NCBI GenBank assembly: GCA_963969365.1
Contig: OZ017760.1
Location: 496,001 to 560,000, forward strand
Source: Asterochloris sp. CNOR1
Lineage: Eukaryota > Chlorophyta > Trebouxiophyceae > Trebouxiales > Trebouxiaceae
Direction of reading: 5' to 3'
Length of the DNA stretch: 64,000 nt
Shown one piece after another: positions 2,980-63,700 of this stretch; the first letter of the stretch is position 1; every line of letters starts with the position of its first letter. The notes under the pieces are model-generated. The model did not search any database, was not told the origin of the DNA, and worked only from the letters and a program-made list of their open reading frames with translations. Both the position numbers and the translations under genes were made by a program.

Positions 2980-5900
2980 GCTCACAAGTATTCCTTGGAG
3001 TCAGTGATCTGGCTCATCAACCCCTCCCCTGCCCTGACTGCAGTGGAGGAGCGCGCCATGCAGGCCTGCATACAGCACCACCAGCAGCACCCCCACGGGC
3101 TGCAGCTGCCCAATCGGTGGGGCGCCTCTGGGCTTGACGACGCTTTCAGCCGGTGCGGGATTGTGACAGAGGGGTACGCCAAGACCTTCTACTTGGGGAC
3201 GCAGCTCATGACGCCAGAGAAGGCCCGCGCTGTGTGGGCTGTGTATGTCTGGTGCCGACGCACTGACGAGCTGGTGGACGGGCCAAACGCCTCGCGCATC
3301 ACGCCTGCAGTGAGTCTTGGGGTGCTTGGCAGGGGGACTGCTGAGCGGCCTGTGGCTTGACCTATGGCTTGCCTAGCTGCCTGCTATGTCAGCAGTGTCT
3401 GAATGGCTCCTGGATGAGCTGGTCAATGGGGCCTTTTATTACTTTCAGCATGTCTGTCCCCCTGGGGCCGCTGTGCTGGACCTGAATAGACAGCAGCAAG
3501 CTGGTGCTCCTGATTGATGCTGTTGTGCACCTGCTGGTGGCAGGCATGGCTGCCAGCTGTAAGGGGTGGCAGATGGTGTGCCCATGCAACAGTGGCAGAG
3601 GGCGGCTGTCAACATCAGCCCGGTTAAGTGGCAATGGGGCCTGGGTCTGCAAGAGGGGCCTCAGCAGCTGTTTCTTGGCTGATGTCCCGAGCTCAGCTCG
3701 TCAACATCCCTCTTTGTTTGCGACTCTGGGCTGGTGGGGTGAGTGCCTGGTGGGCAGCTTTGAGGGTGACTTGAAGGTCTGTAGTGAGATGTCTGCTGCT
3801 GCTACCTGCAGGCTCTGGACCGATGGGAGGAACGTCTGGAAGGCATCTTTGAGGGGCGGCCCTATGACATCCTGGACGCAGCCCTTACCCACACAGTCTC
3901 TCAGGTGCAGACTGGTGGAGCTTGCTCAACTGGGGCTGGGATAAGCAGGCAGCTGCCTGCCTGATCTTACAGGGGTGCAAAGAGCTTAGTTAGGCTGCAA
4001 CTCTGGCTGACAAAGGTGTCTTAGGTGGATGGGCTACCGCTGCATGAGCCGTGCCTGCCGTGTGCAGCAGCTACATGCAACATATTCGCACTGGGACGCA
4101 GCCTGCCTAGGTAGCTCACTGTGCATGCCAGACTCCATTGAGGTGTGCCTGGAGCTCACCAGTCATGCTCGCTGGCTGACATGCTGCAATGTTGCGTGAG
4201 GGCCTGCATGCTACGCAGGCGTGCAAGGCTGATTACCACTGGGTCACCTCTGCATGATGGTGCTGTTTCTGGGAGCTCACCTGCATGATGCCACTGAAAC
4301 ACAGGTCAGTTGCAACTTTATGCATGCCTGCAGTTCCCCGTCCACATTCAGCCCTTTCGCGACATGATTGACGGCATGCGCATGGATCTTGTGAAGGACC
4401 GCTACGAGACCTTTGACGAGCTGTACGAGTACTGCTACCGCGTGGCAGGCACTGTGGGACTGATGACCACGCCCATCATGGGCATCGACCCCGCCTACAA
4501 GGTGAGATCTGTGGGACTGCTGCTGCTGGGCAAAGGATGCTGAAAGCCAAGGCGATGTGGGCGGTTTGTGATGGGCCAGTACTTGGAGGGAATAGGAACA
4601 GCCTGGCGCACCCTGTATGGTGCATGCTATGCGCACATCTTAGCTGCGGTCAAGAATGGGGCTAGGATTGCAGCCTGGCCACCTTTCAGTTGTGCATACC
4701 CGCACAAAAGCAGCAACCAAGCAGTGTTGCTCTGCCCTCCGCATCTGCAGGATGGGTCCAGGGGTGTTTGTTTCATGGTGCGTGTGACCTGACCGTTAAA
4801 AGCAGGACCTGGGAGCCGTCCTCAACCTGTGTGCTCTCACAGGGCGACCTGGAGCCAGTGTACAAGGCAGCCTTGGGCCTGGGCACGGCCAACCAGCTGA
4901 CCAACATTCTGCGCGACGTTGGAGAGGATGTGAACGAGCGCAACCGCGTCTACATCCCCCTTGATGAGCTGCGGGAGTTTGGCATTCCTGAGCAGGCGGT
5001 GAGGAGCTGGGCTGCTCACTTGGCAGCGTGCCGGCAAGGTTGATCTGAGGGTGCTGCGAGGTCAAGGACACCTGAAAAGCCACAGGAATGTGGCACTTCT
5101 CACCAGGCTTCAGCAGTCAGCAGTGTGATGTGTTGGCCTCTGTGATGCATCTGCGCAGTGAGTAGGCATGCTCATGTGCAGAGAGAGGTGTGTGATAGAC
5201 CAGCCTAGCTGCCTTTCCCTGCATAAGCGTGGGCGTCTTTGCATAGTCGTTCATAAGCCAGGGCAACTGCCCAATGATGTCAAACATTTTGAAGGCACTC
5301 TTGGCACTGTGCAAGGACACACAGGGTGGATTGTTGGTGCTAGGGGACTTTTCTAGTATCAGTCCGTTTGGGTGCTAGCAGTCTTGTGGGGCAGGCAGGC
5401 CTAGGGTGGGGCAGGGAGCTGCATCACACTGCGCCTGCCTTGCCTGACAGCCTGAGGTGCTGCTGGTGGCATGGAATATGCTTGTGAACATCGCTTTTGT
5501 GCATGATCTGCAAGGGGCCTTGCAGCTTACTGCTCAACATGCGACCGGCGGCATACAGGCCCTTGCAGCCTGTGAGTCCTGTGCCCTTCACAAGCGTCTC
5601 CACTCCCTGTGCAGATGACAGCAGTCTGCCCCAGCAGCCGCACCCCTCTGCATTGTGGCAAGCAATCGTATTGCCATGGCTTGATGCAGAGCAGGGCCTG
5701 GTTTATGGGCTGCACAGAGCTGTCAAGCCAAAGCTTGCAGGAGGTGAGCTTGATGCTGGGCAGTGCATACTCAGCTGCTTGCTGCAGGTGGGTGATGGCA
5801 GCCTCATCTACCCCAGCGGGCAGGTGGACGAGCGGTGGCGGCATTTCATGGAGCGCCAAATAGAGAGGACACGAAAGTACTTTGCGCAGGCAGAGGCGGG

Positions 5901-7387: not shown

Positions 7388-10300
7388 ATGGAGCAGCCGC
7401 ATCCGCACCCCAACAAGGTGCGCACTGCTGGGCAGGCAGTCTGCTGCATGCCTGCTCCAGCTGCATTGACCCTGTGTTGCCGACGACTGCATGCTTTGAC
7501 TTGCATGCCAGTGTCTCATGTCAACTGCATCGCTGGTGCAGGCACCGGACAACAGCCAGCAGCTGCAGCAGCTGATGCTGGCCCCTCTGCAGGCAGCAAT
7601 GCTCCCCCTGCGGCCCCCAGGCATGCAGGCTCCGAGAGCACGCAGGCCGGCCTCAGGAGCCATCCTGTTGAAGGTCAGGCGTACTGGCAGCTGGCCCTTG
7701 CACTGACACACTGCACAGGAAGGCTGTTCAGCTTCAGACTAGACTCACGTTGCAGCATGGCAAGATGCCTTGCTGTTGGTACCCACCTGTTTGCTAGCAA
7801 CTTTGTCATGAGCAGATGTTGTCAGGAGCATGCCAGGCTGTTGGAGGTCAGTGACCTTCATGGGCCAGATATGTAGCACGTGCAGGTGGTACTAGCAGGG
7901 TTCTTGAGCAGCATGCTTGTCCAAGAGGTGCCGCCTGAGACAACCCCTTAGCTGCCTGCCATTGTGCTCTGCCCCCCGCGAAGGCAGGGCCGCACACAAG
8001 TCTATGCTGCAGGTCTGGTTGCACTGCCACTCAGGTAAGCAGGGGCCTCTGAGCTGACATTTGAGTGCACTGCCTGCAGACCTGAAGTCACCAGGCGACA
8101 GAAACAGTCATGCGGAGACGTCATCACCTGACATTGAGAATGCGCTCAATCCTGAGGAAGGGATGACTGCAGGGCCCCAGGCCTCACAGCCTCGCAGGAG
8201 GCGGCAGGTGCGGTGCTGCTTGGCCTGAAACGCTGTCAACGCCAAGCATGAGTGGAAGCCTGAGGGCGTAAGAGTAGTGAGCCACAGGCATCACAGCCCT
8301 GCAGGGCGCAGCAGCTAATGCGCCACCTGTGGCACAGAGGTCTCACTACTGTGCATGCTTGTGTAGGGTTTAGGGTTTAGGGGAGGCATAGGGGTGCAGG
8401 GCCACAGGACTCGCGGCTTTGCAGGGCACAGCAGGTCAGGTGTTGCTCAGGGCAGAAGGCTTGCACTGCTGCGCATAGGCTTCTGTGGAGGCCTGAGGGG
8501 CCGGGATGGCCCTTTGCAGTTCTGCACGAGGCAGCAGGCGCCAGCTCTTGGATGGTCAGCATCAGCAGCAGCAGGAGCATGCCTCCATGCCTGGACACTT
8601 GTTTGTGCACCGCTGAGGCTGCCCCCTTGCAGCATCTCATTCCTGTTGCGCTGCCCGGAGCAGCAGCATCTCGGCCGATCCCTGCACCAGTTAGACCCTG
8701 AAACCTTGGAAGTCTAACACTTACCAACTAACAGTTAGCAACTGGCCCGCTCCTGCCTGCAGCTCTTCCAGCGGGCGCTCTCTGATGCATGGCTGCAGCA
8801 GAGGATATCATTGCTGACACCAAGCTGGCCCCCCTATGCCCTGTTAACTGCTGTAGCAGCAGAGTGTGCCCTCCACCAGTGGGTGCGCCTTCAGGCGCAG
8901 AGCTGACTGGCAGCGGCTTGTTCTGTGCCTGCAGCTGCAGCAGCAGAGCATGCCCTCCACCAGCGGGCGCTCCTTCATGGACTCGATAAACCAGAATCGG
9001 GGCCTCAAGACGGGGCTCACTGCCGGCCTCGTGCTCCTGGGCGGGACGCTGCTGTTCTCTATCGTGAGGGTGGTCATGAAATATAATGCCCCAGACGCCA
9101 AGAAAAAGCGCAACATCAACAAAAACCTGGTGAGGACAACTGATGACACCCGCTTTTTGGACAGACTGCTTTGCTTCCTGCTGTGGTGCCTGTGTGCCTG
9201 CTGCCTGCTGGATGAAGGAGCTGGTGTCATGATTGCCTGCGTCCAACTGCCTGTGTCCAGCACCTGTTACCCTTCAGGGCCTGCTGCAACCCATCTGATT
9301 GTGTTTGGCCTGTGCAGGGGTACAGCCTGCATGCTCTTTGACAGCAGCCAGCAATGCTGCTGCAGCACATGTCACTCTGGCTGACATTGCTTTCATGTTG
9401 GGGCTGCAGTTTGTGGTGGAGTCTCTGGCCAAGTATCTCCCCTCCAAGCGGCAGGAGCTCACCCCAAGTGAGGCACTGCACTGCTTGTTGTCATGCTGGA
9501 AGCTCTGCAGTGGCCTTGTCTTTGCCTACAGCCTGCAGTCTCTGTCGAAAGAGGCCTGGAGGCTTCCTTAGACAAGTTGAGCTCCACTCGTCAACTCATA
9601 TGTTACTAATGGGCTCCCTGTCAGCTGCCATGACAGCCCCTAGCGTCACAAAACCTGCAGCCATATCGGCCGTCCTCTGGCTGCCTCCCGGGGTGACACC
9701 TGCTGTGTGCACAGGACATACTGCCCCGTCCCACTGTGCAAGTGATGCCCCATTTGGCGCAGATGCATGCAAGCCTGGATCCTGCTGCTGCCTGCATGGT
9801 CGAGCCCGCTCTCATATCGACTGCACTGCCTGCCAGACTCAGCATGCGCCCTGCCCAGCCGTGCAGGCTCCATGCAGGTGCTGCCCCTGCAGCTGCTGCC
9901 TTGCCCAGCCCGTATGGCTCACCACAAAAGAGCGAATTTCCTTTGCTGCCTATCATGCAGGTACGGTGCAGGGCATCATAGGGCGCACAGGCTTCAGCCC
10001 AACAGAGGCCTTCCGCAAGTACCTCTGGTTTGCGCTGCGGGAAAGGAAGTTTGACCAGGACGCAGTCGACGACCTAGTGCAGCTGAAGATATCGCTCAGG
10101 CTGCAGGACTCTGAGGTGGGGTGGGTGACCCAATGTTCAGGCAAAGCATGCAGGAATTTTCTGTATGTCCAGTCTGCATTGGATTGTGCTTGACATGTTT
10201 GCGGCAGAGAGCAGGCTGCTTGAGATGCATTTCATCCCCGGTGGTGCTGAAAAGCATGCTGCCTGCGGCTGCAAGACACGCACAGAAGTCTAATCTCAGG

Positions 10301-11707
10301 GGCACTGACGTGACGTTTGCAAGACAGCACACTGGCAAGAACTCTGAGGTATCAAGAGAGCAGGTAGAGCAAGAGTTAGCCCTGACAGCATGACCCCTAT
10401 GCCATTCAGCTCTTGGCAATGGTGATTTTGTCCCCTGCAGGCGCTTGACACACTGCCAGGGCGGGCGTAGCGCATGTCCATACATAATGGCAGTTGGCAG
10501 TCATATTATACTGACTCTTGTAGGTGCACATGTGCAGGTCGCTGACGCGCTGAAGGAGAGGGCAGAACGCATCTACAAGCAGTACGGCAATGTGATGATG
10601 GACGTGGCAGGCATGAGCAAGGCAGGCATTGACAGGAAGGCTACCTGCAGGGGCCTGTTCTCCAAGCTATTGTATCTGGCAGGTGAGTTCTCGGGAACAG
10701 TGTTGCACTGGGCCAGTTGGGTACTGAATAGCGTGCTGTGTTGGCAAGGCTTCGTTATGCCTGTCCTGTTGCAACATGCTGGTGAGTGCCCCAGTAAGGG
10801 AGAGTCTCCAGATAAGCAGAACTGGTATTCACAGCAACTTGACGAATGCCATCTGCAGGGGCTGTTCTTCATGAGGCTGCAGTGTTTGGCACTTGGGCTA
10901 CGCAGGACTGCTTGGGGCTCGAGCAGTTGTTTCATGAACATCCGCTGTGCCGGCAAGCCTGGGGGCGTGCAAGGAGGGGCACCGTTGCTGCAGCGTGCTG
11001 AATGATTGCTGACAGACTGCTGATGGTCAAATGAGCAAGGCTGGCTCTGGCAAATGGCCACTTGCAGGGTCCTGTCGTCTGAGTTGCTGCATCTGGCTGG
11101 TGGGCCTGAGATTCCTTCCATGCAGCAGGACTGCCCTGCTTTAGGGCTGTGTACTGCGCACATGGGGGACCATGCTCACGCACTTGCCCTGGTCAGCAGC
11201 AGGGGTGTTTCGGGGGCCGGCTGCGTGTGGCAGGTGGTCTTGCCTCAGGGAGCTGTGTGGGTGCCTGCAACTGGTAACTGTGACAGCTGCAGTGCAGCCT
11301 CACCATGCTGGCCTATGCCTGGAATGTTGTGCAGGCAAGTTCTTCAAGGCTTGTGCAGGCTGCACATTGCAGTGCTCACCAGATGGCGGCTGGCAGCGTG
11401 TCCAGGCCATTGTACCCTGGCAGGAATTCCTGCTCAGGCCTGGTTGCCTGTCTGCAGTAAGCATAAGCAAATCCCCTCCAAATTCTTGTTTTCTTCAGTT
11501 GTGCTGCTGAAAAAGGCTGGCTGCCTGCTTGCAGAGAGCGAAAGCCTGATCTCCCAGGACGCTGCTGGTGCCAAGGCAGATGTGGCTGGCGTCTTTGGAG
11601 CAACAGCAGAAGACTGCGATCAGCTGCGCATTGTCAGTCTGCAGGAGGTTGACTTTGACGAATTGGAAAAGCAGTTCAAGACCTTCGACAAGGAAAATGG
11701 ACAGTGA
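7388..11707 (+). CDS. Conserved single-pass membrane protein, function unknown (343 aa)
   Basis: Nine exons join in phase to exactly 344 codons: 7388-7417, 7542-7673, 8013-8034 (22-base micro-exon), 8080-8207, 8941-9129, 9410-9467, 9961-10115, 10538-10682 and 11535-11707 (TGA). Residues 1-104 are low-complexity and basic (PRRRRQ at the end). One transmembrane helix lies near residues 129-147 (GLTAGLVLLGGTLLFSIVRV), followed by a basic KKKRNINKN stretch. The C-terminal ~190 residues are helical and look conserved (GRTGFSPTEAFRKYLWF, MSKAGIDRKA, ATAEDCDQLRI). The pattern resembles unnamed plastid-envelope proteins of the green lineage, but that is recollection rather than proof. An alternative start at the Met of exon 5 would give a ~236-residue protein. 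Function is not assignable. The long intron before the last exon carries degenerate copies of the preceding exon end. Confidence 0.8.
8364..8383 (+). repeat. Short interstitial TTTAGGG-type telomere motif
   Basis: About two and a half units of the plant/green-algal telomere repeat (AGGGTTTAGGGTTTAGGGG) lie inside an intron of the membrane-protein gene. The tract is too short to be a chromosome end. It may be a repair scar or chance. Confidence 0.6.
10760..11105 (+). repeat. Intronic echoes of exon 8 end and its splice donor
   Basis: The exon 8 end with its donor (about 10645-10690; CTGCAGGGGCCTGTTCTCC, then CTGGCAGGTGAG) is followed in the intron by degenerate copies. One is near 11060-11105 (TTGCAGGGTCCTGTCGTC, then CTGGCTGGTG) and a shorter one is near 10760-10790, also ending in a GTGAGT-like site. 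They have lost the reading frame. Confidence 0.6.
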
Positions 11708-13150: not shown

Positions 13151-13179
13151 GATGGTAGCAGGCCGGGCAGGCAGGACCC

Positions 13180-15117: not shown

Positions 15118-15153
15118 TGCAGGGTCTGACAGGTGCTGTGAGACCTGGTGAGC

Positions 15154-19933: not shown

Positions 19934-20189
19934 GCAGCTGTGGTGGCCTGCCCACAGGCACCAGAAGCACCGCATGTCTGGGCGTGCGTGCATCAGCCTT
20001 GGATGCATCGCTTGACATGTGCTTCCTGATTGGACAAGATGCTGCCCAGATTTGAACGCCTAGCGCCAGCATCAGCCTGAGAGTTGTCCCTTTGCGCTCA
20101 GCTTGTCTAGTCAGCCTTGCCTGTTTTATGGTTGATGATGCAGTTGCATGCATGCCATATGGGCAGGCATGGACGCATCAAGACAGGAT
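19934..20189. other. Intergenic spacer
   Basis: Short spacer between the TGA at 19933 and the end of the left inverted-repeat arm. No exon is supported. Confidence 0.4.
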
Positions 20190-23100: not shown

Positions 23101-23420
23101 GGTGGGCCTGAGAGCATTCAAACTCTCAAAAGCCCTGGCAGGAACCACAAGAGCGCCTCCTGTGGGGCATGCAGCCTGTCGCAGCACACCCTGCAGCCCT
23201 GGCAGACAAGCTCCCTCTCCCTAAGGGGAATCTATACCTAGCCCAACAAGTGGGCCACTGCCCTCAGCCCTGCCTCTGCTTGACATCTAAACAAGGGGAA
23301 TCCAGCATGGGCGACCTCAGGTAAGCTCTGCAACAGAAACAGAAAGATGTACAGCCCAATTGACGCACCACCCACACCCCTGCCAAACCGTCAGCTGTGT
23401 GCTGCAGGCAAGCCCAGCCA
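20190..23420 (-). repeat. Left arm of a ~3.2 kb inverted duplication
   Basis: Read on the minus strand, this segment matches 53460-56640 on the plus strand nearly base for base over long stretches, introns included. Matching blocks include the P-loop exon (left 22195-22480, right 54380-54664), the exon with VDGAKPKANKRIK, and the far end (left 20331-20190, right 56460-56640). Similarity stops near 23420, where the two genes acquire different 5' sequences. About 30 kb lies between the arms. Confidence 0.9.
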
Positions 23421-36760: not shown

Positions 36761-36924
36761 GCCAAGATCACCCCCTGGTCTTGGGGGACTGGGAAAAAGA
36801 AAAGCATGTGGCCCTACATGAAATTAAGATCAATGTGGAAATGCACGGCACAGGACCAACTCCAGCAGTGCAGACATTGAGAGACTCTCAATTCAAGAAT
36901 GTACACGAGGCCAAGTGCTGAGTG

Positions 36925-45611: not shown

Positions 45612-46776
45612 CTGCAGATCAGGAGGGGGCAGGGTGTCAAACAGCAGCGTGCACACAGCAGCAGGGCAGCCTCCAGCCAGAAAGCAGGGGGTCAGTGCCC
45701 TGGGATGCATGCAGGACCTTCACTGAGGCTGCAAGGCAGCAGAGGAATGGCATGTACCAGGGCGCATGCAATTGTTGTAGGTGCCCAGAACACTGTCCCT
45801 CCGCCAGGACGGACGGACAGTGCCCTGAACAAGTCCCTGTTGCGGCCGCTGCTCGCCACAATGCTGCTCTGCAGCATTGATGACCAGCAGCATACAGCCC
45901 TTGACCTCCAGCTTCTTTGCACCACATGTGTTCCAGCGCACGTACACCATTTGAGACAGTGCTGCCAGTCACAAAACAGCGCAATGTGGCTGGAGACAGC
46001 ACATGTCACTGCTGTGGCATTGCAGCTTGCCAACGCACTTGGGAGGCCACCATGCATGCCATGTGAGTCAGCATTGCAGGCCCAAGACGCTGATAACGCT
46101 GCCTTAAAGCACGCCTGACCACTGTTTTCATGCAGAATTACAGACTGCGGACATGATGAAACCATCCTGGTGCCATGACGGACGGCACCATCTGGGTGCA
46201 ACAGTACTTCAGGACACCTTGGCTGTATTTCTGAGGGCCAAGGCCCATGTGCCCTGCTGCAGGTCTTCTGTAAGTGCCAGGGTACCTTCTGCTTTCTCTC
46301 ACCTGCTTGTGCAGCACCTGAAGTCACACAGAGCAGCAGAACAACTGCCTGGGAGATCTTCGTGATGCAGTCCCCCCTGCCCGTCATAGGAACCCAGCTG
46401 CCTCCAGCTAACTGCATGCTTTCTCCCACAGCGTTCGCTGCATGATCGTCCAGCTGCCCCGCCCACAAACCCGGGCAGCCCAACACGGCGGATCTCTGCT
46501 CGGTTGAGAATGAGCAAGAAGGCGAAAGGGAACTACAGAGTCTTGTTGCGCCAGCCTTTCCGGTCACTGCAACTATGACCAAATTGTCGCCACCCTGCCA
46601 TTGTTGTGATGGCAGACAGTTGAGGCCACGTGATCAAGGTGCTGGCTTCCTTGGCTATGCAGGGCCTGCTTCCTTGCCCTCTGGCGTGTACATGAGATGT
46701 GTGGATCAGATGTGTTCAGAATAGCTTGATGTATGAGAGGTTCACGGAATGCATGCAGGCAAGTGGGCGTAACACA
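45612..46776 (-). other. Probable 5' exons/promoter of receptor kinase
   Basis: Between the first placed receptor-kinase exon and the malate dehydrogenase stop. The signal peptide and first ectodomain exons should be here. Open minus frames exist near 45800-45870 and 46300-46580, but I could not join any in phase, so none is called. Confidence 0.35.
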
Positions 46777-49700
46777 TCACTTCTCCTGCTCGCTGAGGCA
46801 CTGCAGGGCCAGCTTCTTCTCCTCCACGAGCTCTTCACCTACGGCGCACACAGCTTTGCCATCTGAGCTGCATGAATTGCAAAGCAATGCAATGCGCCAG
46901 CTGGCAAACACTGTCACTGTTGAGCAGGGCGCATCCAGCAGTGGTGCAGCAGACACATCACGGCAGTGTCTTCTGGCTTTTGGAGGCGTTGCTGCTGCAG
47001 CTCTTTGCATATAGACAGCTTGCAACTATAGCTGGCAAGGGTCAGGGAGAAGCCGCATTGGCACCTGTTGCCTTTATCTTCTGCGCAGAGAAGTCGTCGA
47101 TGTTGAGGCCCTGCACAATCTCCCACTTCCCGCCGGAGCACTTGACCGGGAAAGAGAAGATGACGTCCTGCAGCAGACACAGAAACAGCTTGTCGCCGCT
47201 GTGCACAGGCATTGAGACACCAGCCAAATTTCAGCGCTGGCTGGGTGGGGCCTGCAGCAGACACAGCAGAATGAATTCTTAGATGTTTCGCAGCCCTATA
47301 CTGCACTGCTGACAACACAATACTGAGAGCACTGTGAACCACTGGCTGCCTGCATTGCTCTTGCTGGCCCCTGGCACCAGGCAGGTACTTGCAGGCCAGA
47401 CAACCAATTGCATTGTTGGTATGCTTACGGCTGGCCATAGACAGCCAGGAAAGATGCTGCATGCCGCGGGAGGAGGATGCACACCAAAGCAGGCAAAATT
47501 GAACATCACAGGGGAATTCTACCAGCAGCAGCGGCGCCACAGGCTCAGCAGTCGAGAAGCTGACCTTGGGGGTCCCATAGCTCCCGTCTGAGGGGACGCC
47601 CATGGACACCCACGTGTCCTTGGGGGTGCCCAGCACCCAGTCCCTAATGTGGTCGCAGGCGCTGCTGGCCGCCGACATTGCGCTGGATAGGTTGCGGGCC
47701 TGCAGCACAAGCCAGGGTTATTACACACTTACTTTGCAGCCAGCAGCCTTCACCTGCCATCATAGAGCTTTCCCAGCCTGTATGCAGGGCATGGCATCTG
47801 GGGCTGAGCCTGTTGTCCACCTCACACAGATGGCTTCCTTGCAGCCTCACTGTGTGCAAGAGGGCAGCTGTGGCAGTGATGTGACTGAACGGCTACCACG
47901 ATGCGGGAAAAAGCTGGGACTGCCTTAATTATAGCTGTCCTCAGAGGTATGCTGCCTGAGTGAACACAGACAAACGTGACAAAAGGTAGGCTTGCCATGG
48001 TGAGGGCTCGGCATGTGCGCAGTGGCGGGCTGCAAAGCCAGCAACAAGAGCTACGGTGCCACCAAAAGTGCCAGCAACCCAAAGCCTCCCAATCCTTGAT
48101 GCTGGCACACCCCTACGGGTGTTTGTGCATCAACCCACACCAGAACTACAGCAGCCTTGCCGGACGGCTGGCTGCTGCTTGGTGCCCTGGAAGCACGGCT
48201 TGCTTGGCCCCCTGCCACACAAGACATTTCTTAGTCACTGCAGATTCACCCTCTGTCACTGCAGGTTTCAATCACGCCTCCATGCAGGTGGTCGTCAACC
48301 GACCCCACACCACCATGACAGCAGTCACAGCCTGTGGCTGGACCCTGATGCCTGCCTCTGAAGATGCTTACCTCAAGTCTGCTGGGAGCTCAGTCCAAAC
48401 CACCCCCAGTAGACACATTCAGGGACTTGCCTTGATGATGGCTGCCCCCCGCTGCTGCACAGTCTCGATGAATTCCCCCTGCAGGTACTTGTCATCCCCA
48501 ATGGCCTCCTTGATGGACTTGCCCGCCGCAGTGCCATGCGTCACGTCGGGGTACTGCGTGCTGGAATGGTTGCCCCAGATGATGACATTCTTGACCTCGG
48601 TCACGGGGACGCCCGTCTTCAGGGCAACCTGCAGTTTGCAGGTAGAAAAACTTGCAGTGGAGTGACCTGTGGGCACAGTGCTTCGCTTGCTCAGGGACAA
48701 CAGCAATGATACGCCCCACGCTGTATGTCGCCCCAGCCCTGAGAATGACGTGAAGGTATGTGCAGGTGCAGCCCTCATATATTAAGATGCCAGTCTTCAG
48801 AGTCCTTGCTGGCAGACAGGTACAGTCATATCTTTTTGTGGCCAGGGTGGCAAGCATGTAGGAGCACACACCTGACCGTCTGCCCTGTGCGCTGCTCAGA
48901 GCGGGACGAAATCACCTTCTAGCAGGCCTCATCCCCCATTCGGACCTTGCCGCAAGTCCAATGCAAGGCCAACACACCTGCACTGGTGCCCTGTTGTGGT
49001 CAATGCCAGTCATGCATAGTGGCAAGCCCCTTGCCCCTTATGTAAGCATGAGTGAGCAAGTGAGGTTCAAGGTCCACTGACCAACTTTACTTTGAGCTCA
49101 TCTGCCCCAGCGCCCTGCAAATGTCCAAGCCAGTCAATCAAAGCAGCCGGCTGCAGCCACACAGCCAGGGATGCTGGGGGAGCGGGCTGACCGGGCTCAG
49201 CGTCTCTCTTACAGCGGCCCAGAGTCTCCCACTTGATGTATTGAACTATTTTTAAAAACAGGCTGTATGGTGGACTGACCTGCCCCAGCGCCCTGTTGTG
49301 GTCCAGACGGGTCATGCACGTGATGTTCTCGTCCTTGACCTTGGGCGCGTTCTCCTTCAGGATCAGGGCGTTGGTGTTGGCTGGATTGGCCACCACAAGC
49401 ACCTGCAGCCGCACCAGGCTCATGTGACATGGTGGGCATGCCCTGCAGCAGTGTTGCCTGGACTCTGCGGGGCAGATCAGCTCCTGCCTGTTCTGGGATG
49501 GGAGGGTTAGCCAGTGCCCCTACCTGCAGCCAGCACCAGCAGTCAGCCAACAGTGATGTCGGCAAGTCTGATCAAGTGTTGGCTGGCCAGGTGGGCGGTG
49601 GTCAATGTGCCGCCATTTGGGGAGCCGCCCCATAACAGAACCCTTATCGACACTGGCTGCCAGCTCAAAGGACAGACCCCCCCAGATGGCAACCCACCTT

Positions 49701-51209
49701 GACGGTGGGCTTGGCATGCTTCTCCAGCGCCGTGGCCTGGCCCTTGTAGATGGCCACGTTCTTGGCCATCACGTCCTTGCGCTCCATGCCACCCTTGCGG
49801 GGGAAGCCGCCCACCATGACTGCCACATCGATGTCCTTGCAGGCAACCTCAGGGTCGGTGGTGGTCACCACGCCTGCAGCGCAGAGGCGCAGCATCAGCA
49901 CATGGGTGAACAGCTGTGCATGTCTGCTGTTGCAGAGTGCAGGCCATCAAAAGGTCACAAGGCGTCTCTGCAGCAGGGAGGGCAAGTGGCAGGTGGATGA
50001 CCCTGGGATCTGGGACACCTGCTGCTGCAAAGCAAAGGCCACCTCAAGGTTGCAAGTGGCCCCACGTGTGCTGCAGGGAGGCGTAGGCAATTCAGAGCAG
50101 GGGGCGGCCAAGAGTGCTGTTGATGGGGTGACCTGAAGCAGGGGCCTAGTGCTGAAACCACAACGGGGCTGCTTGCTGTTGCGGCCAGCATCGAAATCAT
50201 GACGATGCGTGTGGCAGGTGATTGCAGGGTCAGTTGTGGCCCCCAGCACCATGTCGATGACAGGGGCTCTGACCAGGTGGGTACAACATGTCAACAATGG
50301 GAAGAATCTGATTCCACTAGGCTGTGAAAGCATCTGCAGCACAGCACAAGCCATGTTGTCACAGGTGCTGCCTGCAGACCTGCAGTGGGCAGGTAGGCTG
50401 ATAGGCAGTAGTGTCGCCAGGTGTTGCATTCTAGGGCGGAGTGTTTGAGGCAACGGCCTTCCATCACATCTGCAGCGCTTGAGGGTATCAGGGCTATCTA
50501 CAAGCGCAGCGTTGGCAGAAGGCTGGGTCTTTGAAACTGCCACAGGTCTGCAACCAGACACTGAGCACCAATGTTGATGAGACTGCAACACACCAGGTTT
50601 GCGACACCCCGCAGGGCTTGCCTTACAGCGGGGAGAGGATCACTCGATAAGCAGCCTGTTGACACACCCTTTTGGCTACACTATGCAAGTTTGGGAGGCA
50701 GGCAACATGTCCAGGGTACACAAGCCCAGCTCGCTCTGCAGCACGAGATAAGATAAATTGACGAGCCTCGAGGGCCCCCTCGTGAGCAGCAGATGAGTTT
50801 GCACCAAAGCAGGATTGCAGCAAACGGCCCCCAGGCTTACCTTGCAGCAGGGGAAAGGCTGAGTCGATGAGCTCCATCTTGACACCCTCCAGGCTCTGCT
50901 TGGCAGGCTCAATGTCCAGCAGGTGCAGGATGATGGGCTGGTCAGGGCCCAGCATGGCCCCACGGGCGACCTGGGGGCACAGCGCGTAGCCAATCTGGCC
51001 TGCACCATACAACATGGCTGCTCATAGGCGGGAGGCCAGGACCCTGTTTAGCAGTGATTGCCAGGGAAGGGCCCAAGGCTCCTTGGAGGCAGCATCTGGC
51101 CTACTGCACATGGAAATGCACTCTACAGCATGCTGTGGCACGCATGCAACTTTTTTGCAATCTGACCTGCAGCTCCGGTGATCAGGATTCTTTTCACGTC
51201 CTTGCCCAT
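46777..51209 (-). CDS. MDH: NAD-dependent malate dehydrogenase, cytosolic type
   Basis: Interconverts malate and oxaloacetate with NAD. Eight exons close exactly to 333 codons (332 aa, the usual length of the plant cytosolic enzyme): 51167-51209, 50841-50999, 49698-49873, 49280-49402, 48431-48628, 47565-47699, 47065-47167 and 46777-46838 (TGA). The ATG is followed at once by [18 protein letters not shown], the NAD-binding beta strand and Gly-rich turn, so there is no transit peptide. Substrate and catalytic residues are all visible: Arg92 and Arg98 in [19 protein letters not shown], Asp160 and Arg163 in LDHNRAL, and His188 in [10 protein letters not shown]. Intron 5 has a GC donor (ATCAAG/GCAAGT). 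Introns 2 and 4 contain degenerate copies of neighbouring exon ends. No C-terminal peroxisomal signal (ends LSEQEK). Confidence 0.97.
48984..49130 (-). repeat. Echoes of exon 4 end in malate dehydrogenase intron 4
   Basis: Exon 4 ends GACCACAACAGGGCGCTGGG then GCAG/GTCAG. The intron has GACCACAACAGGGCACCAGT then GCAG/GTGTG at about 48984-49021, and TTGCAGGGCGCTGGGGCAGA at about 49101-49130. Both are on the same strand and in the same order as the exon. Confidence 0.8.
50190..50680 (-). repeat. Echoes of exon 2 end and exon 3 start in malate dehydrogenase intron 2
   Basis: At 50616-50680 the plus-strand text GGCTTGCCTTACAGCGGGGA...GATAAGCAGCC...TTGACACACCC mirrors the true exon 2 end at 50835-50890 (GGCTTACCTTGCAGCAGGGG...GATGAGCTCC...TTGACACCCTCC). 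At about 50190-50250 a degenerate copy of the exon 3 start still translates as ATTDPAITC, compared with TTTDPEVAC in the exon. Confidence 0.75.
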
Positions 51210-52944: not shown

Positions 52945-55900
52945 ATGTCTCATGTGTATTTCCAGCATCAAGCCAGTGGCAATCCGGTTGGGGTGCTGTC
53001 ACCAGATGGGGAAAGGGTGCAGCTGGAACGTGTGGCCAAAAGGTTCCACCTGGCACCAGGCAGCCTGACGCTGAAGAGTAAGACATCTGAAGACTTCATA
53101 GAAGTATCGACCTCTGAAGCTTTGCGCCTGGACGTGTTGCGGGACCTTGTTGCTGGCAGGGGTTCCAAGGAGCAGCCCTTCGAGGTCGCTGGCCTGAAGC
53201 AGGTGAGGGGCAGGCAGTCAGGTCAGCTGATTGGCTGGTGGGGCGTGCAATGACCAGGCAGGACGCATCTAGCTGAGGGCAATGGGCTGCCTGCCACCTG
53301 GAGGGGAGCATGGGTTGGTAAGGCTGCAGATGTCGTCCTGCTTGAGGTGCAAGAGCAGGCAGTGTGTCCCGCGGGAGGTCTACATGCCGCCAGGTCTATG
53401 CATGCTCTGAACCTGCGGCCATAGGAGATGTGTCTGCAGGCGCTTTGCTAAGCCTGCTGAGCTCACCTGCAGCACACAGCTGACGGCTTGGCAGGGGTGC
53501 AGGCGGTGAGGCAGTTTGGCTGTCCATCGTCCTGTTTGTGTTGCAGAGCATGCCCTGAGGTCTGCACATGCTGGGTCCCCCTTGTTGGGCAATCACGCAA
53601 AGGCGGAGCTGAGGGCTGTGGCCCACAGGCTGGGCTAGGTACAGTTCCCCTGGGGAGTGCGAGCTTGTCTGCCAGGGCTGCAGGGTGTGCTACGGCAGGC
53701 TGCGTGCCCTACAGGAGGCGCTCCTGTGGTTCCTGCCAGGGCTTCCATGCTCTCATGCCCACCTGCTCTGCCTTCTGGGCACACACAGCCTGATGGGCCA
53801 GCGAGCATCTGCAGGGTTGATCGATGTGTCAAGGCAGCAGGTGCTGCTCTGCAGCAGGTGCCATGTGTGGGGTGTTGTTCAGGGTGGCCTTGTGATTGTC
53901 CTGGAAGCTGTAGCCCTCATATAAGCACTGCACTTGCCTGCTGGGCCTTTGTGCATCAGTGCCTGCCGTTTGGGCAGCAACATCAGGCGAGAGGGCGCCG
54001 CAGTGCTGCCAGGGTTGATTCACCTGGTGCGCAGCTTTGACGGTATTCATGTCCCTGACCTGCAAGCACCTGCTGTGCAGATAGTCAGTGCTCAGAAGCT
54101 GGTGCCCACTGCGGCTTGCAGGAGGCTGCTGGCGCCTGCTGCCTGTAGCTGACCTGACAGCTGCACAATGGTTGAGGAACTGCCATGCTGCCCTGCTGGT
54201 CAACGCACCCTTTCAAAGGCTGGTGGCTTTGCTGCACTTAGGACGCAGTGTAGCATCCTAAAAAGGCTGATCAGCTCTCAAGTGGTGGGGCCTTGTGTCT
54301 TTGCAAGACCTGCCTCCGCCCGGCTGGTGTGACGGGCCGCCATCTTTGGTGGGCTGCTAGAGGTGGTTGATGCGCGCCACAGCAGAAGGACTGATGGGAC
54401 AACGCTGCCTGCAGGGCCGCACATCTCTGCAGGGATGGCTACCTTTGCAGCGAAAATCCCTGACTTCCCTGAGCGGCCAGATGAGGATGGCTTCCTGTGC
54501 TTTCCTGTGCCTGTTCCACTCTTGCAGGGGAGAACAGACATGCTCGTGCGCGATGTCTACAAGGCACTCTGGGAGCACGTCACCAGCAGCAGCTCTAAGG
54601 GCTTTGTGGTCAGCGGCAACGCAGGCATCGGCAAATCTTGGTGGCTGGTGTGGGTCCTCATCAAGTGAGGGCAGCACGTGGTGGTTAGGGGATGTATACA
54701 GTGAGGTGTTGCCTGGATTCCACTGTGCAGCCATTGCCCAGGGCAGGCTAGTATCCGGAGAGCCATCTGGCCTTGCACCCTGCTGCTGCCCAGCCCTCCC
54801 TCCGGACAATGCTGAGGTTGCTCAAAGCTGGCGAGGCGGTGCTGTGGCATGAGGAAATCGAGGATGATGTGGTTGATACTTTGTTTGACGGCAAAGGTGG
54901 AGCCAGGATGATCAAATCTGAGCAAGCCAGCACGGTAGGCTTCCTGTTACTTCTGTTACTTGGCACAGATTGCACCATGCAGAACGGGTGAGCCACAGCC
55001 TCAAGCATCGTGAGCCTACAGTGGGTGCCAGCATGTGTCCTTGCTGCAGCTGCTCGAAAAGGGTGACTCAAATTACCTGGTGGACGGTGCCAAGCCAAAG
55101 GCCAACAAAAGGATCAAAAACAAGTTGAACCTTGTGGCCCACTCCTACAAGCCTGACCGCTTCAAAGGCTATCTGCGCCAAATAAGCATTGTCTTCGAGG
55201 ACGCCCTCTGCATGATCCTTGGAACCCGACTGACATCTTGAAGGTGGCGGCAAAACTGCACCCCCATCTGAGCACTGTGCTGGTGAGCAATTTGTTGCAC
55301 GTGCCCACTTGTGTCATGTCGCCCTCATGCTTGCCATGGCGAGTCTGCAGGCCCACGATGGTCACCACCAGATGCTGCATGCAGGTCCAGGAGCGCCTCA
55401 ATCTTCATGGTGGCATCCCCTGGCAGGTTTTTGTCGCCTCAGTCTCTGACCCAATGACTGATGTTGAGAGAGCTCTGGTCAATCTCAAGTGAGACGACTT
55501 GGTTTCAGGCTTCACACCCGACAGTGTGGGGTCCCCTGACAGTGCTAGCCATAGGCTACTGGGTGAGCACTACTATCTGGTGGTCAATAGCACTGCAGTC
55601 ATGTAGCTGCAGAGTGTGCAATCACCCACCCCTGCCCATCAATGTTGTGCAGGTGACTTCACAACCTGGGACATCATGTTCAGGTCCAAACAAATATGCC
55701 GCAGGGTGGCAAAGTAGGCTATGCGGAGGTTTAGAGAGGAGCAGCGTGCGCTTCTGTCTGCAAGTGACGACCAGGGCCTCTCAGTGAGTGACTTGCTTTT
55801 CAAGCAAGCGAGGCCACAACATATGCAGGTGGCGCCTATTGTCGCATGCTGTTCTCCTAAAGGACGCCAAAGTTGCTTTGCAGGGCCTCAGATCTTTAAG

Positions 55901-56530
55901 AGGGCAGATGATGGAGTTGCACATGCACGCGACACTTCCGCAACATGCCAAGAGTAAAGTTAGGTGAGCTCTTGCAAGTGAGCGAAGCAGAAGAATGAGT
56001 ACTGATATTCTTTACATTGCAGAGAGCTTTTGCCGGCTCGTGAACGGGGAGGGCACAGCAAACCAGGTCCTGGCACCGCTGCCAAAGAGGTTACTGCGCA
56101 TCACCTCCCGCCACTGCACTTCAGCGATGTGAAGCAGCTGCCATCAACTGTTCCTGGAGTGGCGGGAGGTGCAGCACAGTAACCTCTGGTGGACGCATGT
56201 GCTGTTCCGATGCAGCGCACTTTCCCTGGCATTGATGCTGTACATCCTGGGAGTGGACGCATGTATGAGTGCACGGTCTCCTCGCAGCATGACCTGAAAG
56301 CTGGCATCTTTGAGACCCTGAAGCAACTTGGCAGCAGCACCAACCCAGCTACTGAAGTGGTGGTGCCGAGCTCAGGCACCTTCAATGCCTGGACCCATGG
56401 GATGAAGGTCCCCACACTGCCTGAATCAGCTTCATGTAAGGTAAAGCTGCACTGCAACAATATTAAGCAGTATCTGCTTCACATCTGTTGCTTGAATCAA
56501 ATCCTTAGATGTATGATATCTTGAGTTCGC
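52945..56530 (+). pseudogene. Crinkler/RHS-like P-loop ATPase, right copy, with distinct N-terminal header
   Basis: An ATG at 52945 after a TGCAG site opens an 86-codon exon to 53202 (donor GTGAGG) encoding a compact strand-helix-strand domain (VYFQHQASGNPVGVL, GERVQLERVAKRFHL). It resembles in pattern the ubiquitin-like header of Crinkler proteins; that is an inference. The ATPase module follows in the duplicated segment: Walker A GNAGIGKSWW in an exon ending at 54664, then about 54784-54934 (EAVLWHEEIEDDVV), then from 55052 (VDGAKPKANKRIK). Relative to the left copy, one base is missing at about 55213, which brings a stop soon after, and a TGA stands at 55490-55492 where the left copy has TGG. 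These lesions make an intact product unlikely. Whether header and ATPase form one gene is unproven. Confidence 0.5.
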
Positions 56531-56640
56531 TGTAAAGCAAGATTTGCATGCAAGATCTGCAGAGGGGCCCTGCTAGAGCGACAAGCTCCCAATCGAAGCA
56601 ACTGTGTCTGCATACATGAATATGCAGCGCAATCTGCCTT
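53460..56640 (+). repeat. Right arm of the ~3.2 kb inverted duplication
   Basis: This is the partner of 20190-23420 in opposite orientation. Similarity runs through exons and introns alike, so this is a DNA-level duplication rather than conserved protein only. The right arm starts just after the header exon and its spacer, and ends before the kinase-like gene. Confidence 0.9.
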
Positions 56641-57280: not shown

Positions 57281-57350
57281 ATGGCTGCAGCGGAGCAGCC
57301 CGCAGGTTCAGCAAGGCCCTCTGTCATGGCTGCAACGGAGCAGCAGCAGG
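57262..57350 (+). repeat. 45-base duplication across the start codon
   Basis: CAGCGAGGCCCTCTGTTATG, then GCTGCAGCGGAGCAGC at about 57265, is repeated as CAGCAAGGCCCTCTGTCATG, then GCTGCAACGGAGCAGC about 45 bases on. The duplication creates two in-frame ATG codons (57281 and 57326), each followed by Met-Ala-Ala. Confidence 0.8.
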
Positions 57351-60745: not shown

Positions 60746-63700
60746 TCGCCGGGGAGCCTGGAATACAAAAGCTGCTGCCATCACAGAGAGCAGCTTGGTA
60801 TCCCCACAGGCCTTGCTCTGGTATAGGGCAGCCTCCTTTGCCTGGTGCCTGTTTGTGTGCGGGACGCAGCTTCTCAGGAAGGGCTGGACCCTAGCCATCT
60901 TCAAGTTCTACACAGTATGTGAGTGGTGCAAACGGAGGCCACCTGCTGATGTTTCAATTCGGCCCTGCTCACATCCAGCCTGGCTCTTGGCTTCAACAGC
61001 AAGCGCCCATGCACATCCTCTGTACAGCCGCACATCTTGCTGGTCTGGCCGCGAGTTTGACTGCCAGGTGCCCTTGCAGTGCATGCTGTGCCGTCTGCTG
61101 CCATTGCATGCTGGCCTGTGCATCGCATGCTGAGCAGTCCGCTGGCCTGGCAGCGTGTTGAACCCCTGACCTGAGCAGCAACGTCAGGTGGTCCAGGGAC
61201 AGGCACCAAGCTGCCTACTGTTTTGTCTGCCCAGCCTGGCAGCATGCAAAAGGACGGGCAGTGTCCTTTGCTGCCAGTAAAGGAGCCCCAATCAGCCTGT
61301 GCAGCTGGCCAGGTCACAGCAGCCCTGTCATGGTCTTGTGTCAGCTTGCTGCTTGCCTGCAGTGTTGTGAGGGCAGCAAACACCGGCCTGACCCTCCTCA
61401 TCTGTCAACTGCCAGAACAGTAGCACCCTCTCAGGGCATTCTCCGCCTTCTGTCTGAACAATAGCAGCGGCTTGAACCCCTGTCCTTGCTGTCTGCCAGG
61501 GAATTACTACCTCCTCATGGCATTCTTTGCCTGTGCCACGCTGGCCAGCCTGCTGGCTGTGAGGCAGCAACGAGCCGTCAAGGCGCTGGGCAAGCACCCT
61601 CGCAGCAATCACAGCTCCCCAGGCACTGTGAATGGCCTGGGATATGCCATCATCAGCATGTTTCACATCAATCTCACGACAGTATTCATAGTGGACGTCC
61701 TGACCTGGACTGTGCTGTGGCCCATGCTCAGCGCCAGCCCCAACACGTGAGCCTGCTTTGCTGTTTCTGGCTGTTGCTGGCTCTGCCTTTGATTGTTGAG
61801 TCTGGGCTTTTGGGCATGGGCCTCATGCGGGCTGAGCTGTGGCCCCTGCTCAGGGTCAATCCCGATTTGTGAGGGTGGTCCTTGGATTTGGGCCTGTGGT
61901 ACGCTGTGTTCAGCGCTGGCTCAACACATGAGTTCAAGCCTAAGGCTGGGTGCAGAATTTATACATCGCATACTCAGGTGGACTGTGCTGTGGCATGTGC
62001 ACAGCACCAGCCTTCAAGGGTGAGCTGGGGTGCCATGGTGCTGGATGTCAGCCTTTTGAAGATGTGAGCCTGAGGTTGCCGGTGCTGTCGCCCATGCTCA
62101 GCACCAGCCTGTCCTTGTAAGCTGGACATGCTACTGGGGTGGCTGGTGTGCATGCGGCCTCAGTCCAGGGGGTGCCCTGTCTGGTGGCATGCAGGGGTGC
62201 GCTGCTGTGCGCTCAGCTGGTGGCTCCCTGCCTGCAGGAAGAAGTTTGCTCAGATTGAGCTGTTCAACTTCTGGTCCTATAACCAGGTGAGGTACAATCA
62301 TTGGGGAGGCAATAGTGGCCATGCTGGCTGCCTCAGCGCTGCCCCGCGCAAATGCCCAGCCATGCTTGCCCTGCTGGCTGGCTTCCTGTTTCAATGTCGC
62401 CACTTAAGGGTCCCTGTCTTCCCCCAGCGCTGCCAGTCGTAGTTTCACAGTCCACAATTGCCTGCTGAGCTGAGCACACATGGGGGTCCATGGCCAGATG
62501 CGGCTCTGCGCCTTGGGCTGCAGGCCCTGCATGGCAGCCATCCTCTGGCCGTCAAGCTTGCAGCCATCTTGCATGATACAGCTTTGTGCGCCTGATGCTC
62601 ACTCCCGCTGCTCACCCCGGCCTTGTCCTCAATGCTGAGCGCGGGCAGCACTCAGTTTTGCCTGTCAAGCTCCCAGCTCTTTGCTGATGCTTGTCTCAGA
62701 CGCTCATGCTCCCCTGCACTTGTGCAGCATGGCTTCAACGCCGCCCTCATCCTGGGGGAGGCTTTTTTGAACGCGCTGCCCATCTTTGCATACCTGATGG
62801 GCTACGTGGGGCTCTGGAGCAGCCTGTACGGCATCTGGGCACAGCTACACTACCTGAGGACCGGCCGCTTCCTCTACCCAGTGAGTTGCTGTGCCTTCCT
62901 GCTGTGGACAAGGGTGGCCCGATGTCTGAGGCATCTTGGATAGCAGCAACTCAGGCAGCGCAGGCACTGCTGGGCAGGCAGGCCAACCCTGGTAAACGGC
63001 TGGCTTGCTTCCTGGGCACAGCTATCTTTTTCATACACAGGGTGGTCCCTGCATCCATCAAGATTGTCCGCATGGCGCAAACAAATGTGCACTGACATGC
63101 CAGATGCAGTGCCACAAGACACTGCACCAGTCAGTGGGGCAGGAGGGGTGCAACCCCAGCAATATGATGTCTCCTACTGCGCTCTGGGACACATTGCAGC
63201 CTTTCATGAGTGCAATGGTGTGGTGGCTGAGCAGCGCTTTGGATGCACTGGCCAAGGAGGGCGGCTGATCTGAACATTGTCCACACGTGGCAGCTCAGCG
63301 TGTTTCTTGTGCAGAAAAGAAAGACTCAACGTGATGCTAGTGAACCAGAGCAGCTCAGCCAGATCGCTCAGCGTCCTGGGTCCCCACTGCTGCTGTGCCA
63401 TGCATCAGCTTGTCTACTGTCTGCTTTCGTGGCGGCTCAGTCACCTTGGTGCAGATTGGACCAGCAGTACAACGCAGCCTGACGTCTGGCATTGCTGTTG
63501 TTCACGAGGCTGCTTCTTTGCACTGCTGCTGCACTGCATCGGGCGCTCACCTGACTGGCTGCAATTTGCTCACAGCTCAGGCTTATGCATGTGCATCGGG
63601 GTGGCTGCTCTGCCGTGTGGCTGCAAGACTTTGCTGGCAGCTTGGACGCACGGCTGCTGATGTCAGCTCTGCTGCTACACATATGCTGGTGGCTTTCCTC

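Follow-up and report, generated by a model that had tools for sequence, protein, structure and literature searches.

Decayed copies of exon ends in the adjacent introns of Asterochloris

Exon ends of Asterochloris recur as diverged, same-strand copies, here called echoes, inside the introns adjoining them, and this pattern is confirmed to be real and genome-wide. The echoes are probably decayed short (mostly 60–140 bp) local tandem duplications that chanced to span exon–intron junctions.

Exon-end copies and their controls

We analyzed 304 kb of sequence from Asterochloris, a green alga found in lichens, including a window of 64,000 nucleotides from contig OZ017760.1 to which all table coordinates refer. 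A self-trained ab initio gene finder predicted 666 exons, of which a filter removed 304. Exon ends were compared with their own adjacent introns, and matches with a score of at least 30 were accepted as echoes. Such matches were detected for 30 of 311 donors and 28 of 319 acceptors. With shuffled introns, 1 of 3110 donors and 4 of 3190 acceptors matched at this score; with other introns, 0 of 1603 and 3 of 1660 did. The reverse-complement control gave no match for donors or acceptors. These numbers bear out the original prediction, made from the window alone, that introns carry copies of adjacent exon ends, that the copies are on the same strand, and that each family is private to its own intron and not shared as an introner or transposon would be; the latter origin is rejected. 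Chance similarity through composition or shared splice motifs is refuted by the same controls for the set as a whole and retains practically no probability. CTGCAG-like words are abundant in the genome, however, and individual entries may be accidental, such as 16–20 nt matches with scores of 30–32 (e.g., 47167–47182) as well as four catalogue entries on the wrong side, each scoring 30 and derived from the distal part of an exon.

A catalogue compiled with longer queries and targets than those of the controlled test lists 112 echoes, distributed over 78 of 692 exon ends (in 70 of 362 exons), with one copy at 52 ends, two at 19, three at 6 and four at 1. The window contributes 29 echoes at 19 of 127 exon ends; in other loci, 54 of 535 exon ends have an echo, spread over 16 of 22 loci.

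Echoes located in the window are listed in Table 1. As predicted, copies are present in the 343-aa membrane protein, NASP, malate dehydrogenase (MDH) and Rolling-stone-like membrane protein genes, with 4, 7, 3 and 3 echoes, respectively. Phytoene synthase, whose copies had been called weak, has four echoes with scores of 31–42. In the receptor kinase, two echoes were indeed found, but both are short and borderline (scores 30 and 33). The MDH echoes belong to two donors; there is also a 16-nt match at another acceptor, and 28 nt of an exon start match the downstream (wrong-side) intron. Since MDH exon ends are conserved in Arabidopsis (the donor end at 49280–49318 is conserved in Arabidopsis MDH 5nue and in P0002), the direction of copying is fixed as exon to intron, and derivation of exon ends from intronic minisatellites is rejected for MDH only. 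The NASP echo at 32033–32080 is acidic-repeat sequence and the weakest of the set, and the block echoed at 45682–45707 does not extend to the junction of its exon. The Rolling-stone-like protein had no Pfam match; a further degenerate copy near 61895–61932 in this gene was recognized by eye only.

Table 1. Echoes and source blocks in the window
Feature	Position	Strand	Lag (nt), score, other data
Phytoene synthase, acceptor end of exon 3044–3309, source block	3022–3102	+	exon model, Pfam SQS_PSY
Three echoes, acceptor end of 3044–3309	2693–2731, 2796–2869, 2908–2966	+	lags 337, 226, 119; scores 32, 42, 42
Echo, acceptor end of exon 3812–3904	3724–3766	+	lag 89, score 31
Echo, acceptor end of exon 8935–9129	8850–8893	+	lag 84, score 58, identity 0.86
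Weaker second echo, acceptor end of 8935–9129	8559–8587	+	lag 372, score 34, identity 0.87
Donor end of exon 10538–10682, source block	10613–10685	+	alignment
Two echoes, donor end of 10538–10682	10839–10871, 11031–11102	+	lags 210, 418; scores 32, 48
Echo, acceptor end of exon 26418–26576	26693–26728	-	lag 127, score 32; gene beyond earlier list
NASP echo, acceptor end of exon 31630–31833	31518–31578	+	lag 105, score 38; skipped in P0133
NASP echo, donor end of exon 31630–31833	32033–32080	+	lag 230, score 30
NASP echo, acceptor end of exon 32558–32746	32313–32392	+	lag 235, score 54
NASP donor end of exon 32558–32746, source block	32678–32753	+	donor use supported by P0133
NASP echo of donor 32746	33038–33088	+	lag 334, score 50, identity 0.83
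NASP second echo of donor 32746	33248–33319	+	lag 570, score 49
NASP short echo, donor end of exon 34404–34532	34608–34628	+	lag 95, score 32
NASP short echo, interior block of exon 34404–34532	34805–34835	+	lag 369, score 34
Two echoes, donor end of exon 44221–44601	44007–44046, 44081–44104	-	scores 34, 33
Echo, block 33–59 nt inside acceptor side of exon 45421–45611	45682–45707	-	score 37
MDH donor end of exon 49280–49402 (11 protein letters not shown), source block	49280–49318	-	conserved
MDH echo, donor end of 49280–49402	49102–49117	-	lag 178, 16/16, score 32
MDH echo, donor end of 49280–49402	48976–49016	-	lag 302, score 37
MDH echo, donor end of exon 50841–50999, degenerate donor included	50608–50665	-	lag 220, score 42
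Rolling-stone-like, donor end of exon 61500–61746, source block	61699–61746	+	model collinear with P0121
Rolling-stone-like, three donor-end echoes	61829–61853, 61979–62012, 62069–62109	+	lags 122, 273, 370; scores 35, 43, 47

Topology of the copies and repeats outside junctions

The nearest blocks cross the junction or lie within 3 nt of it in 44 of 53 cases. Introns on the wrong side are nearly empty: none of 225 exon ends matched the upstream intron and 2 of 229 exon starts matched the downstream one (score at least 30). Pooled exon-side flanks contain no residual homology (z −1.6), i.e., the edges are abrupt, and intron-side flanks retain some homology (z 3.7, n = 50) as a pooled effect, with 5 of 50 single flanks above the 95th percentile of the null. 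Taken together, these three features fit tandem duplications spanning splice junctions. Acceptor-side units with lags of 60–160 include at least 41 nt of intron in 24 of 24 cases (uniform-null p = 5 × 10−5), which suffices to take in the branch-like CTNAY peak at −30 to −21; the difference between donor and acceptor units in the length of intron included does not reach significance by itself (Fisher p = 0.12). The exon part is at most 71 nt in all 86 junction-reaching blocks, below the uniform-breakpoint expectation, and 26 of the 112 catalogued blocks do not extend as far as the junction. Among the 98 of 112 echoes with a predicted exon of at least 30 nt on the far side, 18 run into that exon and only 2 terminate no more than 12 nt from the far splice site, which rejects intron gain by exon tandem duplication.

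We propose that at a donor, a unit composed of the exon end, GT and the intron start would be duplicated; the first donor would stay in use, and the second exon end with its donor would be dropped into the intron. At an acceptor, the intron end, AG and the exon start would be duplicated, the last acceptor would stay in use and the first copy would be stranded upstream. Since splicing would bypass the stranded copy, duplications of this kind would be nearly harmless. Neutral drift would then affect the stranded copy but not the conserved exon copy, and exon ends would thereby serve as preserved references for a process that may have struck noncoding DNA at large. The repair step could be fill-in of staggered breaks or template switching.

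We infer a tandem origin for each copy, although the lag generally exceeds the length of the aligned block (median block/lag ratio 0.28 in 153 pairs), the spacers of high-identity blocks 8850/8934 and 35720/35805 have no visible homology, and blocks of less than 35 columns make up 48% of those observed versus 16–34% of those simulated; some copies could therefore have arisen by dispersed or shorter duplication. Such short blocks relative to the lag, and the abrupt edges of several high-identity pairs, would also be produced if the copies were templated insertions made during break repair by synthesis-dependent copying of nearby DNA, and human repair-mediated local duplications, some with splice sites, are described in PMC2671141. 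We consider such an origin doubtful, since direct orientation alone is in excess here whereas the human cases include a duplicated exon in opposite orientation (PMC2671141), the pooled residual homology runs on along the intron side, and block length approximates the lag in several pairs (59, 64, 65 and 119 nt).

Local repeats were surveyed in 26 ten-kb chunks (the first 60 kb of the window and loci L001–L020). At distances of 30–1000 nt and at least 30 bits, 142 forward and 7 inverted pairs were found, with no excess of inverted repeats, and ungapped segments scoring at least 32 numbered 175 at lags of 20–1500 versus 2 at control lags of 4020–5500. Close same-strand copies thus exceed both distant and inverted pairs, as local tandem duplication predicts. 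The lags have a mode at 60–140 nt and a second rise near 200–280, as multi-copy arrays give (lags 119, 226 and 337 at one acceptor). A table of score excess by class was disregarded, since the classes are not represented equally at near and far lags.

The same kind of repeat was present in 36 of 467 survey windows at exon ends, 103 of 3927 in intron interiors, 11 of 646 in intergenic DNA and 7 of 216 in long exons, which speaks against the original view of junctions as the thing duplicated. Exon ends are matched about three times as often as intron interiors (ratio 3.0, 1.9–6.5 by bootstrap over loci, chosen because intron-interior windows overlap at a step of 40 nt); junctions are at most a candidate duplication target. 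Earlier counts (junctions 28/364, intron interiors 60/2696, exon interiors 2/226) shifted after retraining and with more sequence, and at 7 of 216 exon interiors are not clearly poorer in repeats than introns.

Age of the copies

In the controlled test, 33% of 58 echoes were at least 85% identical to their source and 2 (3%) at least 95% identical. A single age of 0.20–0.28 predicts 17–27% and 1–3%, respectively, and steady birth 63–70% and 27–30%. When the best echo with at least 35 columns was taken for each exon end, a count that leaves out the 22 of 78 ends without such an echo, 5 of 56 reached 85% identity; steady birth is expected to yield 60–63% of junction copies of this length in all six combinations of exon constraint and indel rate tried. 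The simulations, which assume an exon constraint, an indel rate and uniform breakpoints, gave a junction/interior ratio of 2.9–4.6 at an age of ca. 0.22–0.26 substitutions per site and 0.8 for steady birth. Longer blocks cluster at 70–85% identity; in the whole catalogue, 43 of 112 entries are at least 85% identical, mainly short ones, of which the threshold demands high identity. Since the majority of copies look old, duplication appears to have been more active formerly than now, and since 6 of 36 intron–intron pairs (at least 35 columns) are at least 85% identical, a single old age is too simple. Young copies are not hidden as called exons, as just 1 of 9 exon–exon pairs of this length reached 85%.

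Mismatch rates at the three codon positions were 0.166, 0.173 and 0.229, a pattern of near-neutral decay in which the copy drifts and the exon itself undergoes silent substitution. RIP-like mutation was rejected as the source of divergence (194 transitions, 180 transversions, no general C-to-T flood). C-to-T changes affected 21 of 84 CpG sites and 47 of 636 sites elsewhere, an excess that methylation decay would give.

Duplications of mostly old date, still legible because the exon copy is conserved, would account both for the threefold junction excess and for the shortage of young copies. An old, lineage-wide episode of rampant 60–140 bp tandem duplication may thus have inflated Asterochloris introns and be best legible at exon ends, a reading we advance tentatively and at somewhat less than even confidence. 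The higher match rate at junctions could also be due to steady, ongoing local tandem duplication with neutral decay and a preference for junctions, but this is quite unlikely given the shortfall of highly identical copies at both thresholds (5 of 56 and 2 of 58) and the intergenic and intronic repeats that occur without junctions; the continuing steady mode of growth originally envisaged is not supported, given the same scarcity of young copies. Absent young pairs would be explained without an old episode if birth were steady and identical repeats quickly collapsed by recombination or slippage, with diverged pairs surviving. A few near-perfect tandems do exist (e.g., L018:545–744, 96%). Collapse would, however, have to remain efficient up to ca. 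15% divergence, and ages of at least 0.12 alone give a junction/interior ratio of ca. 1.4 against the 3.0 observed, which makes this explanation unlikely. By rough extrapolation, duplication might have added about a quarter of intron length.

Relation to known duplications and effects on introns

Introners affect introns genome-wide and have splice sites in their copies; one family is common to introns of unrelated genes, whereas no such family links the intron-private Asterochloris copies. Repair-mediated duplications in vertebrates were reportedly described by Pace et al. in 2009, and local sequence duplication in fly regulatory DNA by Nourmohammad and Laessig. Doublets, or close direct repeats (Thomas et al. 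2004; Achaz et al. 2001; Messer & Arndt 2007, via PMC2671141), are likewise short, close copy pairs found across the genome. According to PMC2671141, those surveys considered identical or nearly identical pairs, whereas longer Asterochloris copies are mostly 70–85% identical, sometimes occur in several copies, and can be read because an exon end forms one member of the pair. The vertebrate repair-mediated set in that paper is likewise closely linked and partly includes splice sites or partial exon/intron sequence, but it excludes copies within 50 bp, one duplicated exon is inverted, and partial exon/intron donors number 4 of 824, compared with 78 of 692 exon ends here. Templated insertion during repair would be expected to yield copies in either orientation, whereas inverted pairs are not in excess in Asterochloris. 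In PMC3188502, fly local duplications are likewise seen as decayed similarity, of ca. 7 bp motifs within ca. 70 bp of regulatory DNA rather than splice-junction units of ca. 100 bp. Intron gain by tandem genomic duplication, as presented in PMC3443670, likewise creates extra splice sites by duplication around AG|GT, but makes a new intron, whereas here an existing one is lengthened. The direct repeats of Rogers & Bendich 2025 (PMC11782384) likewise touch splice borders; they are of 4–30 bp, link the 5′ and 3′ borders of one intron and are read as insertion scars, unlike the Asterochloris copies of one border (mostly 20–80 nt) inside the intron.

Exon-end copies inside their own introns were not described as a genome-wide pattern in the titles and abstract beginnings of the open-licence literature matches listed, which is weak evidence of novelty, and the word “tandem” is absent from the main text of the Asterochloris genome paper (PMC6652019) as available. 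Local duplications are already known; what is new is a fossil record at junction scale. Transposon-free intron lengthening is difficult to quantify, as neutral sequence loses the record of its past. With a reference copy retained in the exon, duplications that crossed a junction become countable, and approximately datable, through a simple self-alignment of any annotated genome; if the old episode is true, exon-end echo counts would offer a general gauge and date of past intron growth.

Annotation of the genome gives about 10,000 genes with 9 introns each. Of 221 introns between two trusted exons, 37 contain an echo, too few for the introns to be called filled with copies. Their median length is 502 nt versus 266 nt for the 184 introns without one (p = 1 × 10−7), a correlation to which the greater room for finding an echo in a longer intron may also contribute. 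Simulation suggests that many more echoes have been worn past recognition. Of the original proposal of intron growth by local duplication, the local, same-strand, intron-private copying and the longer introns stand; junction targeting and continuing growth are not supported.

Decoy-like splice sites are present in the copies, as claimed, at about the level of the rest of the block: the donor GT was retained in 12 of 18 and the acceptor AG in 29 of 37 copies, where 0.65 was expected (slightly high for AG, p = 0.09). This frequent retention and the identity cluster at 70–85% might be taken as signs of functional decoys (splicing silencers, poison or alternative exons) under selection. Neither the near-flat codon-position pattern nor the otherwise ordinary splice dinucleotides reveal copies that keep frame and splice sites under selection, however, like repeats occur outside genes, and the transcript-like NASP protein P0133 skips all seven NASP echoes, so that functional decoys are very improbable.

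Junction duplications may also provide extra splice sites through which exons could extend or introns slide. Since echoes mimic exon ends with donors or acceptors, they can mislead gene prediction: JGI model Astpho2/8482 counts as coding a stretch that overlaps one NASP echo (33038–33088).

Local direct repeats and exon-end echoes

Local direct repeats are in excess. Self-comparison of the window at 30 bits or more and distances below 1 kb retrieved 43 forward pairs versus a single inverted one, and 26 ten-kb chunks yielded 142 forward versus 7 inverted pairs at distances of 30-1000 nt. Ungapped segments scoring at least 32 numbered 175 versus 2 at control lags, and ungapped segments most often had lags of 60-140 nt, lags of 200-280 forming a second maximum.

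The genome containing the window comprises 56.4 Mb in 21 contigs; the sample analysed was 304 kb out of 56 Mb, with our own ab initio gene models. These came from a splice-aware HMM trained on the sequence itself from a seed of 18 window peptides, which learnt the signals CAG/GTGAG for donors and CTGCAG/G for acceptors. Because predicted genes were over-merged and small false exons were present, the analysis was restricted to the 362 of 666 exons that were at least 45 nt long and had a coding score of at least 6.

The last (or first) 60 exon nucleotides plus 6 intron nucleotides were aligned to the adjacent intron. A score of at least 30 was reached by 30/311 donor ends and 28/319 acceptor ends, compared with 1/3110 and 4/3190 for shuffled own introns, 0/1603 and 3/1660 for introns from other loci, and none of either kind for the reverse complement. 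With controls near zero, this self-alignment, the check proposed with the original prediction that introns carry diverged copies (echoes) of their own exon ends, upheld it. Echoes sit on the side permitted by splicing: in a smaller data set, exon ends matched the upstream intron in 0/225 cases and exon starts the downstream intron in 2/229. A catalogue built with longer queries holds 112 echoes at 78/692 exon ends, including four wrong-side matches, all scoring 30. Outside the window, echoes were found at 54/535 ends in 16 of 22 loci.

Structure of the copies and a possible splicing filter

The nearest echo lies at a median lag of 119 nt, and 44 of 53 nearest blocks cross the junction or end within 3 nt of it. 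Tandem duplication across the junction predicts an abrupt exon flank and a fading intron flank. Beyond the block, similarity ended abruptly on the exon side (z -1.6), and weak pooled homology was seen on the intron side (z 3.7; 5/50 singly above the null's 95th percentile). The exon-side edge would then be the true breakpoint, and intron-side homology would fade because both copies drift. Against a simple tandem, the block is usually far shorter than the lag, and in several pairs of high identity the spacers are unrelated. In MDH (malate dehydrogenase), copying ran from exon to intron, since the exon ends concerned are conserved in Arabidopsis. Mismatch rates by codon position (0.166, 0.173 and 0.229) are spread across positions, and the echo is therefore free of protein constraint; GT or AG within echoes is kept at about the same rate as the rest of the block. 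C-to-T differences at CpG were raised in echo alignments (21/84 versus 47/636 elsewhere), which suggests decay of methylated CpG.

Acceptor-side units with lags of 60-160 had an intron part of at least 41 nt in 24/24 cases, while a uniform null expects 8.8 with less than 38 (p 5e-5). Over 344 acceptors from all loci, the branch-like motif CTNAY peaks at -30 to -21 (65 versus about 27 per 10-nt bin), which suggests the branch site position; the minimum intron part fits the outer acceptor's need for its own branch site. Donor units were less restricted (2/13 below 38), the contrast with acceptors being non-significant (p 0.12). In the 86 blocks that reach the junction, the exon part is at most 71 nt.

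Local direct duplications are already known in eukaryotes, as are repair-mediated ones copying splice sites in vertebrates (PMC2671141); PMC3443670 also reviews tandem duplication as one way in which introns are gained. Genome-wide echoing of exon ends within their own introns was not described among the matches listed from the open-licence literature. Two sampled introns (L013:7304-7701 and L017 near 6587) have the arrangement that intron gain by tandem duplication would leave: a copy of the end of the exon before them occupies their 3′ end and runs as far as the acceptor.

Junctions, intron interiors and age

In equal tests (66-nt query against the next 200 nt), scoring windows were 36/467 at junctions, 103/3927 in intron interiors, 11/646 in intergenic DNA and 7/216 in exon interiors, the junction/interior ratio being 3.0 (bootstrap over loci 1.9-6.5). 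Such a ratio could reflect preferred duplication at junctions, as originally claimed, or greater age. In a simulation with assumed parameters, real exon and intron sequence received tandem duplications, introns then drifting neutrally and exons more slowly. Steady birth gave a ratio of 0.8, and ages of 0.22-0.26 substitutions per site gave 2.9-4.6. Copies of at least 35 columns were at least 85% identical in 5/56 cases, versus 60-63% predicted by steady birth under all six parameter settings. With no length filter, 33% of 58 echoes reached 85% identity and 3% reached 95%; steady birth predicts 63-70% and 27-30%, and a single age in the range 0.20-0.28 would give 17-27% and 1-3%. Ratio and identity spectrum together thus make most duplications look old, with the exon end a legible witness, and a preference for junctions was not borne out. 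Not every duplication is old, since 6/36 intron-intron pairs of at least 35 columns were at least 85% identical; short blocks were commoner than simulated (48% versus 16-34%). Echoes at 58/630 ends and a probability of detection between 0.32 and 0.47 would correspond, in a rough extrapolation that relies on the simulation and its 80 permitted starts per junction, to a duplication every 280-410 bp of intron and to 24-36% extra length.

Introns, splicing and gene models

Introns with an echo have a median length of 502 nt versus 266 nt for those without, partly because greater length gives more room to find one. The seven NASP echoes are all skipped by P0133, a protein from a 1763-base contig that we took as a transcript because its reading frame spans ten exons; its source label, lgn, presumably stands for contigs assembled from public reads. 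In the JGI fgenesh model Astpho2/8482 (P0134), window 33008-33082, which overlaps a NASP echo, is treated as coding, and exon 33674-33777, present in P0133, is missing.

Pfam matches among predicted proteins were phytoene synthase, kinase, SHNi-TPR and MDH domains. No Pfam domain was found in the Rolling-stone-like protein, which is collinear with its homologue P0121 and 52% identical to it. The MDH model aligned with Arabidopsis MDH (5nue) along its full length. With one exon start edited by hand, it agreed with JGI protein Astpho2/8485 at every aligned residue; the latter lacks 10 residues of the model, and the model lacks 2 residues and the last 5 of Astpho2/8485. Astpho2 is the portal name for Asterochloris sp. 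Cgr/DA1pho, a lichen alga whose genome measures 56 Mb and whose genes contain 9 introns on average (PMC6652019). The genome with the window is here assigned to Asterochloris at the level of genus.

GC donors are frequent (24/343 trusted predicted donors), and the 10 residues absent from the JGI MDH protein fall at the minus-strand one tabulated below. The gene finder also placed a false 12-residue MDH exon at 49488-49523 (-), adjoining the acceptor of exon 49280-49402. By eye, the 12 residues are vaguely similar to the 11 at the start of that exon, and the stretch is possibly another worn echo. An over-merged model at 21387-29357 (-) has a product that in part matches PAF-acetylhydrolase isoform II (PF03403, E 3.7e-48).

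GC donors and the inverted duplicate in the window
Feature	Window position	Strand	Support
GC donor	33777	+	P0133
GC donor	48431	-	P0001 and 5nue
Inverted duplicate, 3.3 kb, 87% identical	20180-23418 and 53456-56640	+ and -	self-comparison

The inverted duplicate has diverged less than most longer echoes. The predicted protein from its second copy had no Pfam match; judged by eye, the duplicate's reading frame resembles that of an NTPase (motif GNAGIGKSWW).
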